Positions 28,157 through 34,217 of a stretch of DNA of 41,239 bases are shown in pieces. The notes beneath the pieces are model-generated. The model made no database searches. It saw only the letters and a program-made list of their open reading frames with translations, and was not told the DNA's origin. Position 1 is the stretch's first letter, and each line of letters begins with the position of its first letter. The DNA comes from Eubacterium sp. (GTDB lineage Bacteria; Bacillota; Clostridia; Lachnospirales; Lachnospiraceae): NCBI GenBank assembly GCA_024681515.1, contig JAILAR010000109.1, positions 1 through 41,239 on the forward strand, given 5' to 3'. The translations under genes and the position numbers were made by a program.

Positions 28157-30421
28157 CTACCCAAACATCTCCCTGATACGAAGTGCCAGGCTGGTGAACC
28201 GTTTCTGTTCGCTCGTATTATCGATCATCCGGTCGATCATGGACATATCTCCCACCAGAACAACCAACCGTTTGGCCCGGGTGACCGCGGTATAGAACAG
28301 ATTTCTGGTCTGCAGCTTATCCGCTCCGCGATAAAGAGGGAGCAGCACCGCCTCGTATTCACTTCCCTGAGATTTATGGATCGTAACTGCAAAGGCATGC
28401 TCCAGTTCGTCCGCCATGGAAAAGGGATACCTGGCAATCCGTCCGTCATCAAAGCGGACCTCCAGTTCCTTATCGTAGTCATTGATCAGACGGATCCGTC
28501 CCATGTCTCCGTTAAAGACACCGATGCCCTGCTCCTCCGTAAAATCATTTTCCGGGGAGGGTTCCATCCGCCATTCCATCTTATAATTGTTGCGGATCTG
28601 CATCACCTTGTCGCCCTCGCGAAAGATCACGTCCCCCATCTCATGCTCCGCCCTGCCGGGCTTCTTCGGATTCAGTTTTGCCTGCAGCCTCCGGTTCAGA
28701 CCGGCTACGCCCAGATCGTATTTCCGCATGGGGGTCAGCACCTGGATTTCCTCCGGTGCCACATTCAGATATTTCGGAAGATTCACCGTCATCAGGGTTT
28801 CCAGTTCCCGGATGATCGCCTCTGCCCCGACTCGCGGGATAAAGAAGAAATCACTCCCTTTATTTTCGATCTCTATATGTTCTCCGCGCTTGATCATATG
28901 GGCGTTACGAACGATCCGGCTCTCCTCCGCCTGTCGGAAAATGGTAGAGAGCGTCGTAACCGGGAAGCATTCGCTGACGATCACGTCGTGCAGTACATTT
29001 CCGGCACCCACCGAGGGCAGCTGGTCGATATCGCCCACCAGGATAAGCCGGGTTCCCGCAGGGATCGCCTGCAAAAGCGCATAGAATAACGCTGCATCCA
29101 GCATGGAGGCCTCATCGATGATCACCACGTCACACTCCAGCGGACTCTCTTCATTTTTTGCGAAGAAAACCTTACGGTTTCCCTCCTGTCCCGGTTCTCC
29201 GGAGAATTCCAGAAGCCGGTGGATCGTTCGTGCCTTTACGCCTGTGGATTCCGTGATCCGCTTTGCCGCGCGTCCTGTCGGAGCCGCCAGCTCCACCTCC
29301 ATCCCCAGACGTTCAAAATACCGGATCAACGCATTGATGATGGTGGTCTTTCCGGTTCCGGGTCCGCCTGTGATCACTGCCACGCCGGAACAGATTGCTT
29401 CCCGAACCGCTTTCTTCTGTATCTCATCCAGTTCGATCGAAAGACTTCGCTCCACCTCTCCGATGGAAGCATCCAGATCCTCCTCCGGCACCTCCTGCCG
29501 GACGGAAAGATCCGCCAGTTTTCTTGCGATACTGAGCTCATTCTGGTAGTTTCTCCAAAGATAGACCACGGGAACCGACGGCTGCTCCGGATCCTCTCCC
29601 AAAGCGATGCTCTTCAGAACGACCTTCCGCTGCATGCTCATTTCAACCAGCTGGTCATGAGCCCACTCCATAAAGGACTCCCACTCCGTATCGAGGTTCA
29701 TGGCCTCTTTCGTACCTGCGATCAGCTGCTGCTCGGGAATGAAGATGTGTCCTTCTCCCATCGCCTCACTCAGCACATAGAGCAGAGCCGACTGGAGGCG
29801 GTATTCACTGTCTGCTGCAACACCGACAGCCGCGGCGATCTCATCCGCACGCCGGAATCCGATCCCCTGGACATCCTCCACAAGCCGGTAGGGGTTCTCC
29901 CGCAGGACCGAATACAGTTTCTCGCCATAGGTCCGGTAGATCTTCATGGCGATCTTCGCGGTGATACCGTATTTTGCCAGAAAGATGGCTGCTTCCTGGA
30001 TCTCGCTGTTATCACGGAAGGCTTCTCCCAGTTCTCTGGCCTTCTTCAGCGTGATCCCCTTCACCTCCGCCAGCCGCTCCGGCTCTTCCTTCATGATCCG
30101 GAGGGTATCATCCTTGAATGCGCGTACAATCCGTCTTGCCAGTCCTTCACCGATTCCTTTTACCAGACCGGAACCCAGATAGCGTTCGATCCCCACAAGA
30201 TCCATGGGCATGGAAAGCTCGCAGGAGGTCACGTTAAACTGGAGACTGTACTGCGGGTGGTTCACATACTCCCCTTCCGCCTGAATATACATTCCCTCGT
30301 GAATTCCTGCGAGATAACCAACGAAGATCTCTTCGCCCTCCGTCGTTTCAACAGAAAAGACCGTGTAGCCGGTCTCTCCATTATCCCATATAATTTTTTC
30401 GATATAGCCCTCACGAACCAT
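28157..30421 (-). CDS. recD2: RecD2-type ATP-dependent DNA helicase
   Basis: A 754-residue SF1 helicase of the RecD2 type, which works without RecBC. An N-terminal OB-like and helix-hairpin-helix region (about 1-200, VKGIGEGLARRIVRAF, VQGIGFRRADEIA) precedes Walker A GGPGTGKTT (about 352-360). It continues with LAAPTGRAAKR, VVIIDEASMLD, LVGDIDQLPSVG and the C-terminal TIHKSQGSEYEAV and FYTAVTRAKRLV. ATG 30421 lacks a strong ribosome site (GACGGGG upstream); a TTG at 30427 is possible. It sits 25 bases after the mreB-like gene. Confidence 0.95.
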   Translation of the reverse strand: MVREGYIEKIIWDNGETGYTVFSVETTEGEEIFVGYLAGIHEGMYIQAEGEYVNHPQYSLQFNVTSCELSMPMDLVGIERYLGSGLVKGIGEGLARRIVRAFKDDTLRIMKEEPERLAEVKGITLKKARELGEAFRDNSEIQEAAIFLAKYGITAKIAMKIYRTYGEKLYSVLRENPYRLVEDVQGIGFRRADEIAAAVGVAADSEYRLQSALLYVLSEAMGEGHIFIPEQQLIAGTKEAMNLDTEWESFMEWAHDQLVEMSMQRKVVLKSIALGEDPEQPSVPVVYLWRNYQNELSIARKLADLSVRQEVPEEDLDASIGEVERSLSIELDEIQKKAVREAICSGVAVITGGPGTGKTTIINALIRYFERLGMEVELAAPTGRAAKRITESTGVKARTIHRLLEFSGEPGQEGNRKVFFAKNEESPLECDVVIIDEASMLDAALFYALLQAIPAGTRLILVGDIDQLPSVGAGNVLHDVIVSECFPVTTLSTIFRQAEESRIVRNAHMIKRGEHIEIENKGSDFFFIPRVGAEAIIRELETLMTVNLPKYLNVAPEEIQVLTPMRKYDLGVAGLNRRLQAKLNPKKPGRAEHEMGDVIFREGDKVMQIRNNYKMEWRMEPSPENDFTEEQGIGVFNGDMGRIRLINDYDKELEVRFDDGRIARYPFSMADELEHAFAVTIHKSQGSEYEAVLLPLYRGADKLQTRNLFYTAVTRAKRLVVLVGDMSMIDRMIDNTSEQKRFTSLALRIREMFG

Positions 30422-30452
30422 TTTCAAACCCCGTCAAACTCTGTCAGGCTTC

Positions 30453-31448
30453 TTATAATCTGGGATTGTCATCGATCGAATCCACGTACTTCCCGGTACC
30501 GATCGCCACTGCGGACAGCGGATCCTCCGCTGTCATGGTCGGGATTCCCGTCTTCTCTTCGATCAGCTGCTCCAGACCATGCAAAAGTGAACCACCACCG
30601 GTCAGAAGGATTCCACGGTCTGCGATATCTGCCGCCAGTTCGGGAGGCGTCTTCTCCATCACCGCATGGATCGCTTCCACGATCTGTCCGGTGGGTTCAC
30701 GGAGCGCTTCCTCCGTTTCATCCGAAGTGATCATGACCGTTTTCGGAAGTCCTGTCATCAGATTTCTTCCGCTGACATCCATGGAAATGTTCTCGGGCCG
30801 TTTATAACAGGTCCCGACATTGATCTTCACTTCCTCCGCGGTACGGTCTCCGATCAGCAGGTTATGCCGTTTACGGATATACCGGATGATCGCATCATCA
30901 AAGTCCTCTCCCGCAACCTTGATGGACTTGCTGACTACTGCGCCTCGCATGGAGATCACGGCAATATCCGTGGTACCGCCGCCGATATCCACCACCATAT
31001 TTCCTACCGGACGAACGATGTCGATCCCGGCACCGATCGCAGCAGCGATCGGCTCTTCGATAATGGTCACATCTCTTGCGCCTGCATTGTAGGTTGCTTC
31101 TTCCACCGCACGCTTCTCAACTTCCGTTACGCCGGAGGGTACACAGACACAGATCCGCGGCCGGCGTCCGAGAAAATTCCTTCCGATGGCCTTGCGGATA
31201 AAATATTTCAGCATCTTTTCCGTTGTTGTATAATCCGAGATCACTCCGTGACGGAGCGGACGGATCGCTATGATATTTCCGGGGGTACGTCCCAGCATCA
31301 GGCGTGCTTCTTCACCGATCTCTACGATCTTTTCCTGATCTTTATCGTAGGCAACCACCGAGGGTTCCCTGAGAACAACGCCTTTGCCCTTTACATATAC
31401 AAGAATGCTGGCCGTTCCCAGATCGATTCCGATGTCTGCGCTTGCCAT
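30453..31448 (-). CDS. MreB/Mbl-type actin homologue
   Basis: A 331-residue actin-fold cell-shape protein: DIGIDLGTASILVY (phosphate loop 1), MVVDIGGGTTDIAVIS (phosphate loop 2), EEPIAAAIGAG and ILLTGGGSLL (adenosine site). These filaments guide lateral wall synthesis. mreC and mreD do not follow, so this may be the Mbl or MreBH paralogue rather than the mreBCD member. AGGAGG precedes ATG 31448. It lies between the PAS/GAF-like protein and recD2, probably in one transcript. Confidence 0.93.
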   Translation of the reverse strand: MASADIGIDLGTASILVYVKGKGVVLREPSVVAYDKDQEKIVEIGEEARLMLGRTPGNIIAIRPLRHGVISDYTTTEKMLKYFIRKAIGRNFLGRRPRICVCVPSGVTEVEKRAVEEATYNAGARDVTIIEEPIAAAIGAGIDIVRPVGNMVVDIGGGTTDIAVISMRGAVVSKSIKVAGEDFDDAIIRYIRKRHNLLIGDRTAEEVKINVGTCYKRPENISMDVSGRNLMTGLPKTVMITSDETEEALREPTGQIVEAIHAVMEKTPPELAADIADRGILLTGGGSLLHGLEQLIEEKTGIPTMTAEDPLSAVAIGTGKYVDSIDDNPRL

Positions 31449-31473: not shown

Positions 31474-33216
31474 CTAATCCTGTGCGACTCTGAGCAGGAC
31501 CGTGGTTGCCGGCTTGCCGTCCAGCCACTCGATGGGGATCTCCGTCACATCGTAGATCCCGCCCAGCTCATGGATATACCTGCGCCAGTTACGAATACCC
31601 GTAGGCGGCGCTTCGTTTTCCAGAACAGTTCCGGGATAACTGTCATAGACTTCCTTCCCGTCCGGGATCAGTTTTCTCGAATCCTGCCCTCTGAGGTCCA
31701 TTCCCAATCTGCGATTGATGGCATCGTTGGAGAAAAGAACCTTTCCTGTCTCATTATCCTTGATAAATATACTGATGGTCAGCTGATGGAAGATATCCAG
31801 AAGTTCCCGGCCGGTGGACTGTTTTGCTCCCAGCCCCTCCGAATATTCGATAGTTTCCCCGAGCATCCGGCCGATCAGGCGGGCAAAATGCACCTCGGAA
31901 TCCGTCCAGATCCGTTCCTTCCTGGTCTCCATGAAAACCACACGTCCGATCAATTTCCCGTTTACCGGAACCGGCATCAGGATCGCTGCCCGGGCGATAC
32001 CCTGAAACATCGTCACGCGGATCTGGTTGGTCATGGTCCGCTGATCTACCACATAACCCTCTTTTGTAAGCTGATCTCTCTGCTGCTCCGAAAAGCTGTT
32101 ATGATTCCATTCCGGCGGAAGCCCTCCGGAGATGCTCCATGCATCGCTGAGATCCTCGCGGCTGCCGATTATCCTGTTCTTATGCATCAGAAATGCATAG
32201 TCCACTTTCAGTACCTCAGCCGCCCGTTGGATGATCGTATGGATCGACTCCTTCTCCTCCCCACGGATCAGGTCCTGCAATTCCGCAAGGACATATTTCT
32301 GGCGGATCTCAAAATCCAGCTGCTGCTCGATCTCCTTCTCGCGCTCCGTCCTTTTTCCGAAAAGAGCGGATTTCTGAATATAAGCAGAGACCAGTTGCCC
32401 GAAACGATACTGCTCCCGGGAGGCCATTCGAAGCGCCGAAGTCTGGGATTTGTCGTGGGCATAAAGCATCCATGTAGCCAGATACACGCCGCTCACCATC
32501 AACGGAACTGCGGACACACGGCTCTCCGGATTTCCGTCCGGGATCTCCATGTAAACCGCCGTATCCTGCATCATGGCAGACCGCTTGATCGCCTCCAGAA
32601 GTTCCTTGTTCTCCGGGCGTTCAAACATATCATAGTAATGTCCGAGATACGCCTCCGGTCCCACCGGGGGAAACAGGGCATGCCCGTCCTGATCCACGAC
32701 GGTGGAATACAGGCCATACGCATTTGCAAAGAAACCGAACAGTTCGCCCAGTTCCTCCTCCCTGAAGATATCCTTTGTGATCAGACGTCCCCTGGTATCC
32801 TTTCCGTGTCCGGCTTTCTCCGTAGTGGCACTGTCCTGCAGGACGACCTCACGGAACACATACTCGATCATGTAGTAATCGCCGTCATAATCAATATACT
32901 CCGAAGTGACATCCACATTCCGGATCACACCGTCATCTCCCACCAGGCGTACCCGGCAGGTAAAATTCGTTTTTGTCTCCGCTGCCATGCTGACTGCATC
33001 GACAAAGCCGTTACGGTCCTCCGGATGGATATAGTCCTTCGGAAGACGAAAACCGCCCCGCAGACTGGCAAGATTCATGCCAAGCTGCTGGACATTATCG
33101 GAGATATAGTCCAGCTTCGTCCGCGTAACAGGCGCATCTTTCGTGTATTTCATCACGACCACGCAGCTCCGCATCGTTTCCAGAGCCCGTGTCATATAAT
33201 CCAAGGTTCGGTCCAT
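31474..33216 (-). CDS. Multi-domain PAS/GAF-like sensor protein with no recognisable output
   Basis: A 580-residue cytoplasmic protein. Order by eye: PAS-like (about 10-130, YIHPEDRNGFVDAV); PocR/GAF-like (about 165-285, FANAYGLYSTVVDQDG); a charged helix (TEREKEIEQQLDFEIRQKYVLAEL); GAF-like (about 317-437, AAILMPVPVNGKLIG); and a final PAS-like domain (about 447-577, TISIFIKDNETGKVLFSNDAINRRLG). No kinase, GGDEF, EAL or DNA-binding domain follows. I chose ATG 33216 (GGGGG upstream) over 33285, which has no ribosome site. Relatives with this kind of tail usually continue into GGDEF-EAL, so this may be a detached sensor or a truncation. Confidence 0.75.
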   Translation of the reverse strand: MDRTLDYMTRALETMRSCVVVMKYTKDAPVTRTKLDYISDNVQQLGMNLASLRGGFRLPKDYIHPEDRNGFVDAVSMAAETKTNFTCRVRLVGDDGVIRNVDVTSEYIDYDGDYYMIEYVFREVVLQDSATTEKAGHGKDTRGRLITKDIFREEELGELFGFFANAYGLYSTVVDQDGHALFPPVGPEAYLGHYYDMFERPENKELLEAIKRSAMMQDTAVYMEIPDGNPESRVSAVPLMVSGVYLATWMLYAHDKSQTSALRMASREQYRFGQLVSAYIQKSALFGKRTEREKEIEQQLDFEIRQKYVLAELQDLIRGEEKESIHTIIQRAAEVLKVDYAFLMHKNRIIGSREDLSDAWSISGGLPPEWNHNSFSEQQRDQLTKEGYVVDQRTMTNQIRVTMFQGIARAAILMPVPVNGKLIGRVVFMETRKERIWTDSEVHFARLIGRMLGETIEYSEGLGAKQSTGRELLDIFHQLTISIFIKDNETGKVLFSNDAINRRLGMDLRGQDSRKLIPDGKEVYDSYPGTVLENEAPPTGIRNWRRYIHELGGIYDVTEIPIEWLDGKPATTVLLRVAQD

Positions 33217-33299
33217 GTACAGTTCCCCCTGTGCATAATATGCTTTGGACGCAGGAACTTCAGTCCCTGCGTCCCATGCCCTCATAAACCGGAGCCGAA

Positions 33300-34217
33300 C
33301 TACGCATTGGTTGTTTCATCAGCTTCCTGGCTGCTGCCTTTCAGATCACCGAATGCACTGTCTGTCAGAGCCTTTGTATCCTTGATCGCGCCGGCAACCT
33401 TCTCCACCGACAGCTGCAGCTGGGATACAAATTCGCCGATGCTCTCGCACTCCCGCTTTACCTGGGAACGAGTGGTATAAACTTCTTCCCTGGTCTTCTG
33501 CTTCAGTGCTTCACATTCTGCTTCTGTATCTGCCTTCATGGCTGCACAGGCAGCTTCCGTCTGCGCATTCATTTCCGCGCAGGCCGCCTCTGTGCTGGTC
33601 TTCAGATTATCGCAGTAGGTCTCGGTACTCAGCTTCTGATTTGCACAGTCATAGCTTGTCGTGGATCTCTGACGCTCGCACTCTGCCTCTGTCTTTTCAC
33701 GCAGCTCATTGCAGGAAGCCGTTGTCTCCTGCGTCATGCGTGCGCATTCCGCCTCTGTCGTTGCCTTCTGCTCATCGCACTGGGTGCGGGTCTCGTTCAT
33801 CATCCGCTCCAGCTCCGCAGCAACCTCTTCTTTCTGCTTTGCGCATTCCGCCTCGGTATCCCGGACCAGCTTGTCGGCACGAATCTGTGCATCCAGCGCA
33901 ACCTTGCTGACGGATTCATATTTTGCCCTATAGTCTGCTTCATTTGCTTCATAGTCTGCCAGCTTTGCGCGGAGGGTCTCCATTTCGCCTTGAAGATCCG
34001 CATTGGCAGTTTTCAGCGTGTCCACGGTACTCTTGGACTCACTCATATTTACTTCACGCATCTTGCGAAGACTGTCAACGGTTTCGCCCAGCTTGGCAGC
34101 CGTCTCTTTCAGCTGCGTGATTTGCTTCTCATAGTCTTCCTGCATCTCTGTGATGTAGGTCTCTACCGCTTTCTTGTCATATCCACCGAAGGATACTGTT
34201 TTCAATTCGAAATCCAT
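33300..34217 (-). CDS. DivIVA-like coiled-coil protein with a cysteine-bearing 11-residue repeat
   Basis: A 305-residue protein. The N-terminus MDFELKTVSFGGYDKKAVETYI resembles the membrane-binding head of DivIVA/GpsB. The rest is almost all coiled coil. From residue 125 to 257 it follows a strict 11-residue period of the form xxxKxxTEAEC, with Cys at 125, 147, 158, 169, 180, 191, 202, 213, 224, 235 and 257; positions 136 and 246 are Leu and Val. An 11-residue period favours a right-handed or straight coiled coil. DivIVA proteins organise poles and septa. ATG 34217 has AAGGAG upstream; the in-frame start at 34283 lies outside the homologous part. Confidence 0.82.
   Translation of the reverse strand: MDFELKTVSFGGYDKKAVETYITEMQEDYEKQITQLKETAAKLGETVDSLRKMREVNMSESKSTVDTLKTANADLQGEMETLRAKLADYEANEADYRAKYESVSKVALDAQIRADKLVRDTEAECAKQKEEVAAELERMMNETRTQCDEQKATTEAECARMTQETTASCNELREKTEAECERQRSTTSYDCANQKLSTETYCDNLKTSTEAACAEMNAQTEAACAAMKADTEAECEALKQKTREEVYTTRSQVKRECESIGEFVSQLQLSVEKVAGAIKDTKALTDSAFGDLKGSSQEADETTNA
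33447..33845 (-). repeat. 33-bp coding repeats (cysteine hendecads)
   Basis: Thirteen consecutive 33-base units encode the 11-residue modules, with a cysteine codon at the same phase in eleven of them. Unit sequences differ at many synonymous and other positions, so the array is kept by selection rather than by recent duplication. Confidence 0.85.

Follow-up and report, generated by a model that had tools for sequence, protein, structure and literature searches.

The window analysed here is a 41,239-nucleotide stretch of a contig from Eubacterium sp. (Lachnospiraceae), and at its centre of interest lies a minus-strand gene (33303..34217, ATG at 34217, stop codon at 33300-33302) encoding a 305-aa DivIVA-like protein with orthologues in related genomes. 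The protein consists of three parts, all encoded on the minus strand: a DivIVA-like head at residues 9-63 (SFGGYDKKAVETYI..., 34029..34193), thirteen hendecads at residues 121-263 in a T-xxx-C-xx-L/M register with Cys in 11 of 13 (33429..33857), from now on referred to as the ladder, and a C-terminal tail at residues 264-305 (33303..33428), which is mostly helical in the AF2 model and moderately conserved in the family alignment (A2). Further along the same strand follow a conserved neighbour of 603 aa with PAS_3 and GAF domains identified via Pfam (31474..33285), a conserved third gene for an MreB-family actin-like protein (30453..31448, NF010539 at E 3e-145, TIGR00904 over its cut-off) and, as a common further neighbour, a RecD2-type DNA helicase (28157..30427, PF14490 HHH_RecD2 at E 1e-39). 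A phage or plasmid origin was rejected, as the whole ladder protein found no match at E<=1e-3 in either the phage or the plasmid collection.

The homologue search covered the own genome and 60 relatives, 36 of the same genus and 24 from other families. The gene was found in 35 of the 36 same-genus genomes, the exception being G014, which is 80% complete, while the 24 other-family genomes yielded a single weak match (E 7e-5). After removal of duplicates and of the weak match L044, and with two loci from a further search, the set used below (family A) comprises 38 distinct proteins, namely the window protein and 37 homologues with 39 to 85% identity to it in alignment A2; 36 are from the genus, the others being L034 from a Lachnospiraceae MAG and L037, whose protein is the same as that of G531 (genus g278).

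The DivIVA-like head proposed in the original prediction was borne out by this set, with PF05103 matching all 38 members at E<=0.01 (best 3.9e-9). The window protein alone reaches E 7.2e-4 and 20 bits, under the curated threshold of 28; the DivIVA structure 2wuj aligned to the head at E 0.016, and the helix starts at residue 15 in the AF2 monomer. Measured against the motif GY[DN]xx[QE]V[DN], as used in PMC9858780, the window sequence GYDKKAVE shows two departures and that of the ladder orthologue L037 (same protein in L060), GYDKKEVD, is an exact fit. Searching the own genome for DivIVA returned contigs C4 (125 bits) and C30 (41 bits), with the ladder locus at 15 bits, below the cut-off. The strongest match, a 233-aa open frame, contains no Cys, and the second, which we take to be GpsB-like, has one Cys in 165 aa. 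Given a strong DivIVA match elsewhere in the genome, the ladder protein is an additional DivIVA paralogue and not DivIVA proper, being outscored by both C4 and C30. It shares with DivIVA and GpsB (PF05103) an N-terminal GYD loop and, presumably, the coiled coil that comes after it; unlike in these proteins, the coil carries Cys hendecads and the gene stands beside PAS/GAF and MreB neighbours. The neighbours of DivIVA named in PMC9858780 are SepF, FtsZ, FtsA, YggT and YggS.

All 11 Cys of the window protein (125, 147, 158, 169, 180, 191, 202, 213, 224, 235 and 257) fall into one residue class modulo 11, with none elsewhere in the 305 aa, so the prediction that Cys fills 11 rungs in a row of 13, spaced 11 residues apart between 125 and 257, is exact when checked on the translated ORF (33300-34217). 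The two empty rungs hold Leu (136) and Val (246). None of 200000 random placements of 11 residues in 305 gave at least 8 in one class modulo 11, which together with the family-wide register rules out chance. Across the 38 proteins the main register holds 382 of 392 Cys, 9 to 12 per protein in 37 and 7 in one; the 10 off-register Cys lie beyond the ladder towards the C-terminus at a spacing of 21 (8) or 7 (2). Multiples of 11 account for 344 of 354 Cys-to-Cys spacings (282 of 11, 58 of 22, 3 of 33 and 1 of 44). As the number of rungs varies from 7 to 12 Cys, no single rung count is special.

Counted between the first and last ladder Cys of each of the 38 proteins, 449 hendecads define the repeat T-x-x-x-C-x-x-(L/M), with Thr at position 0 in 390, Cys at position 4 in 382 and Leu or Met at position 7 in 287, the eight outer positions being variable. 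Core positions 0, 4 and 7 recur with an 11-residue periodicity around a small central residue, as expected of a hendecad; the best hydropathy period of the window ladder is 3.65. The 67 non-Cys residues at position 4 are Val (20), Thr (19), Ala (15), Leu (9), Met (3) and Ile (1). The residues that a single base change can make out of Cys (Ser, Gly, Arg, Tyr, Phe and Trp) do not occur at this position in any of the 449 hendecads.

Site rates, calculated with columns of more than 20% gaps left out, have a median of 0.21 in the 12 position-4 columns and 0.17 in the 12 position-0 columns. For comparison, the remaining nine ladder positions lie at 0.65-1.38 and the head at 0.43. The 10 columns in which Cys is commonest differ from the 109 other ladder columns (p=7.6e-6). 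Cys is found in at least 35 sequences in 7 of the 12 Cys columns counted; less fixed are columns 136 (25/38), 257 (19/38) and 213 (29/33), and in columns 191 and 246 another residue is commonest. Free replacement of Cys in close homologues, the observation that would have left only the hendecad conserved, was looked for in the 38-protein family and is not what these columns show. Cys codons are split between TGT (202) and TGC (190), and both occur in each of the 12 columns holding at least 10 Cys. This mixture within every well-filled column rules out a DNA-level motif as the cause of the ladder and shows selection on the protein, acting on amino acids and on Thr no less than on Cys. Since the Thr of position 0 varies as little as the Cys, strong conservation is by itself no proof of thiol chemistry. 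Coupling of Thr and Cys within hendecads is strong with the flanking coil included and weak inside the ladder (odds ratio 3.7, p=1e-4 in family A; p=0.018 in other families), and it should be taken as a hint only, since related sequences are not independent.

The distribution of the ladder was followed in sampled rather than complete sets of genomes, by a first-pass search that may miss some copies. Profile A2 matched 13 of 392 sampled genomes of the order (E<=1e-3), near full length only in the own genome, G064 and G380, and 15 of 397 genomes of the family (E<=1e-8). Seven family genomes match across A2 (the own genome, G023, G457, G484 in two pieces, G531, G064 and G380), gene order identifies further orthologues in G512 and G694, and full ladders are also found in genera g27, g204, g231 and g278. 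A profile of the ladder itself (A3, 19 segments) found matches in 2 of 391 genomes sampled from the class (E<=1e-6). In the family sample the figure was 17 of 397 (E<=1e-5), and in the own genome the profile matched this ladder protein only. One candidate, L049, proved to be a different 11-codon repeat read out of frame and was discarded, and L071 was excluded from later counts.

Three orthologues from other genera mark the limits of the trait. In L048 six rungs are Ser, five of them in hendecads that also carry Ala instead of Thr, and one inner rung is Cys; L064 and L067 have partial ladders. All three keep the gene order and the tail while their ladder is mostly Ser/Ala or partial, so it is the hendecad that is conserved and its Cys that is specific to a clade. 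They group apart with support 98 in a tree of 44 proteins built from head and tail columns. The full ladder marks one clade, and its gain there is likelier than proved, the root of the tree not being fixed.

Cys ladders are also carried by other heads. Family B has a different head, read by eye as 'LSRxELLEML ... GSIAEAxLxLNGVFEAAQxAA', followed by a (T/A/V)-xxx-C hendecad ladder in L065/L081 (G532), L070/L080 (G722), L069, L066, L098 and L129; L070 contains 14 Cys and L065 has 19 in one register. A family B profile, built from nine members among the ladder-profile loci, had hits in 46 of 338 genomes, a part of which belong to family A. Among the 32 distinct matching ORFs of the best 30 loci, the longest run of spacing-11 Cys was 0 in 9, 1 in 9, 2 in 5, 3 in 2, 4 in 3 and at least 6 in 4, and in ladderless members, L163 for one, Ala or Ser fills the rung places. 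Weak matches link family B to the DivIVA/Wag31 model (2 of 9 members, best 8.1e-5) and the Scy model (one member, 0.006), and a GYKPDEV stretch lies close to the N-terminus of L143; going by these resemblances, the heads of families A and B may be distant kin. Of the three family B loci whose neighbours were run, L126 encodes an rRNA methylase, and L127 and L129 encode a signal peptidase, in L129 accompanied by a sortase; the latter two loci are faintly suggestive of a connection with surface or pilus assembly. A second DivIVA-like protein, L068/L086 (G522), with the head MFKTTLMGG(F/Y)DK..., has seven Cys rungs in a row, and its relatives L051 and L053 have one Cys. Judged from these sequences, the ladder has arisen or been retained on no fewer than three kinds of head in a single bacterial family, and recurrent ladders are confined to the window's taxonomic family in the sampled genomes.

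Gene order was compared in 20 loci with wide flanks (L105-L124), of which 17 have a ladder and L118, L121 and L124 none or a partial one. A PAS/GAF protein homologue adjoins the ladder-family gene in all 20 (in L119 it is cut by the contig end), and the order DivIVA-like, PAS/GAF-type, MreB is kept in 19. Pfam runs on three of the partners identified PAS_3 and GAF in the window, PAS domains in L121 and GAF in L110. The partners have no column with Cys in at least half of the 20 sequences; the idea of a redox partner with conserved Cys of its own is therefore not borne out by the PAS/GAF protein, which counts against an explanation by thiol locking. A RecD2 relative is present in 18 of 20 loci, the window copy being confirmed by PF14490. 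In L117, L118, L121 and L124, all from other genera, flagellar rod/hook genes follow mreB at the place where the window has the RecD2 helicase, and all five of the flagellar genes run against Pfam matched. The ladder is not tied to loss of flagella, as L117 carries both a full ladder and flagellar genes. The genome has two MreB-family genes, with the copy at 30453-31448 scoring 459 bits versus 331 bits for G000:C186:20069-21034.

On a straight 11/3 helix, positions 0, 4 and 7 deviate from the central one by no more than about 33 degrees, and Thr, Cys and Leu/Met at these positions are the sole apolar face of the ladder. This places the thiols in the presumed chain interface and disfavours a surface stripe. 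Among the 11 hendecad positions mean hydropathy peaks at that of Cys, and the hydrophobic moment points 4.5 degrees off Thr, towards Cys. The earlier picture of a Cys face on an otherwise charged coiled coil therefore stands as regards the single face and the hendecad and needs correcting in that Cys belongs to a presumed hydrophobic core of Thr, Cys and Leu/Met. According to PMC9858780, each hendecad repeat directs one of its core residues right at the axis; the crowding that results is relieved in higher oligomers or by using a small residue, Ala above all. In the ladder hendecads, Thr occupies the axis-facing place and Cys flanks it. The AF2 model (alignment A2, monomer only) has helices at 15-186 and 192-301 with a break at 187-191 (mean pLDDT 85.5, pTM 0.47) and, being a monomer, says nothing on oligomer or rungs. 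DivIVA structures and the apolar face together lead us to infer parallel chains with Cys facing Cys. At core phases from 0 to +16 degrees, a parallel-dimer model of straight hendecads (R0 4.8 A), built without side-chain packing and meant as a plausibility check only, gives a distance of 5.3-7.2 A between the Cys CB atoms. At the phase of the hydrophobic moment the distance is between 6.3 and 7.2 A, longer than the about 4.5 A of a relaxed disulfide, and this counts against thiol locking.

Known systems resemble the ladder protein in part. The actinobacterial FilP and Scy, as described in PMC9858780, likewise join a DivIVA-like motif to a long hendecad coiled coil, with cores that are Ala-rich instead of containing Thr and Cys; no FilP/Scy model in Pfam or NCBIfam matched the window protein at E<=1. 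The best PDB sequence for both profiles is 6h9l (E 3.5e-5 and 5.8e-4), deposited as 'Uncharacterized protein' and presumably CCDC90-like. The 11-residue repeat of its stalk, TKEDIEALRKA, shares the T-xxx-core-xx-L register, and its Ile takes the place of the ladder Cys. The CCDC90-like family PF07798 matched 1 of 38 members (E 0.005). The PDB sequence search gave two matches at E<=1; judging by their names and by the alignment obtained for one of them, neither contains a Cys ladder. Csp copper storage proteins also have a thiol row inside a helical bundle, but there the core of a monomeric four-helix bundle is filled with many Cys, as opposed to one Cys per 11 residues of a long rod; no Csp model in Pfam or NCBIfam matched the window protein at E<=1, and AF2 predicts two long helices. 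A literature search of titles and abstract beginnings, with most subscription papers outside its coverage, returned no DivIVA or hendecad coiled-coil protein with such a Cys row.

We hypothesize, and give an even chance to the idea, that the protein is a DivIVA-like parallel coiled-coil scaffold rod with a thiol-lined core that can be locked by oxidation or a soft metal. The head would dimerise and target the rod, and the rest of the protein would form a long parallel coiled coil of straight hendecads with Thr (a), Cys (e) and Leu/Met (h) in its core. Each Cys would stand opposite the same Cys of the partner chain, giving two-thiol rungs about 16.5 A apart, and pairing of dimers would bring more thiols to each rung. 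In a reduced anaerobic cytosol the thiols would serve as small core residues. The chemistry by which oxidation or a soft metal ion might bridge the rungs, and so stiffen or lock the rod, is conjecture. Together with the neighbouring PAS/GAF sensor and MreB, the rod would act in one pathway. What the sequences show directly is the head, the register, its conservation under selection, the gene order and the limits of the clade; the parallel dimer, the thiol contacts and a role in elongation are inferred. The conservation of the row across dozens of species in this protein of gut bacteria and its recurrence in other rods suggest that the thiols matter for the working of the rod.

How far this calls for thiol chemistry depends on the weight given to packing. 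Cys might simply be the preferred small apolar residue beside the central Thr, with no bridge, metal or redox event, a reading we hold to be a serious contender, if on balance doubtful. It is a strong rival because Thr is conserved as strongly as Cys, an equality that, along with the Ser/Ala orthologue L048, speaks against thiol chemistry. The Ser at six rungs of L048, the Ala or Ser of ladderless family B proteins such as L163, the Ile of 6h9l in an equivalent register and the requirement of hendecad dimers for small core residues, particularly Ala, noted in PMC9858780, all fit packing alone. However, rungs of the ladder clade are Cys in 382 of 449 cases and never Ser, 7 of 12 columns have Cys in at least 35 sequences, and if size alone counted, Ala, Ser or Val would be expected more often per column. 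The absence of Ser and the rare exchange in most Cys columns speak for thiol chemistry, while the failure of columns 136, 191, 246 and 257 to keep Cys and the varying number of rungs count against the lockable rod.

A rod with two, three or four thiols per rung, depending on the oligomer, that takes up Cu(I), Zn or Fe-S as a store, buffer or structural clamp is unlikely in our estimation. Thiol rows in helical bundles are known to hold Cu(I) in Csp proteins, to whose Csp3 such a rod would bear a loose likeness, and a varying rung number fits a collective role. However, rungs about 16.5 A apart would not allow a multinuclear cluster as in Csp, and no metal gene was noticed among the neighbours, a minority of which were run against family libraries. 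Still more speculative, and in our view very improbable, is a linear array of thiolate rungs at a pitch of ~16.5 A, which fits the distance rule for electron hopping, with one soft-metal ion or Fe-S cluster per rung of a dimer of dimers passing electrons along the rod, as a general module on at least three kinds of head. Homogenisation of repeats, whereby slippage or conversion copies one Cys hendecad and leaves the row as a by-product of turnover, has equally little to recommend it: rung number does change by whole hendecads and some adjacent repeats are near-identical copies (L011, L019), but these repeats are highly divergent at their outer positions, many alignment columns retain a distinct identity and each well-filled column contains both Cys codons.

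Cys is a rare constituent of coiled-coil cores, which as a rule are made up of aliphatic residues or Ala. As a fixed core residue over 7 to 12 rungs, in dozens of species and on several heads, it makes for a core of unusual chemistry that may be connected with anaerobic life. The lockable rod would offer an easy test of whether oxygen or metal can lock a cytoskeletal scaffold, and the ladder a natural template for the design of thiol and metal arrays. Outside the window's bacterial family, L050 and L058 encode short coiled-coil proteins with a TEKEC stretch and a build resembling that of family B. They have two Cys or one, those of L050 lying 11 apart, and are perhaps an early or reduced ladder.
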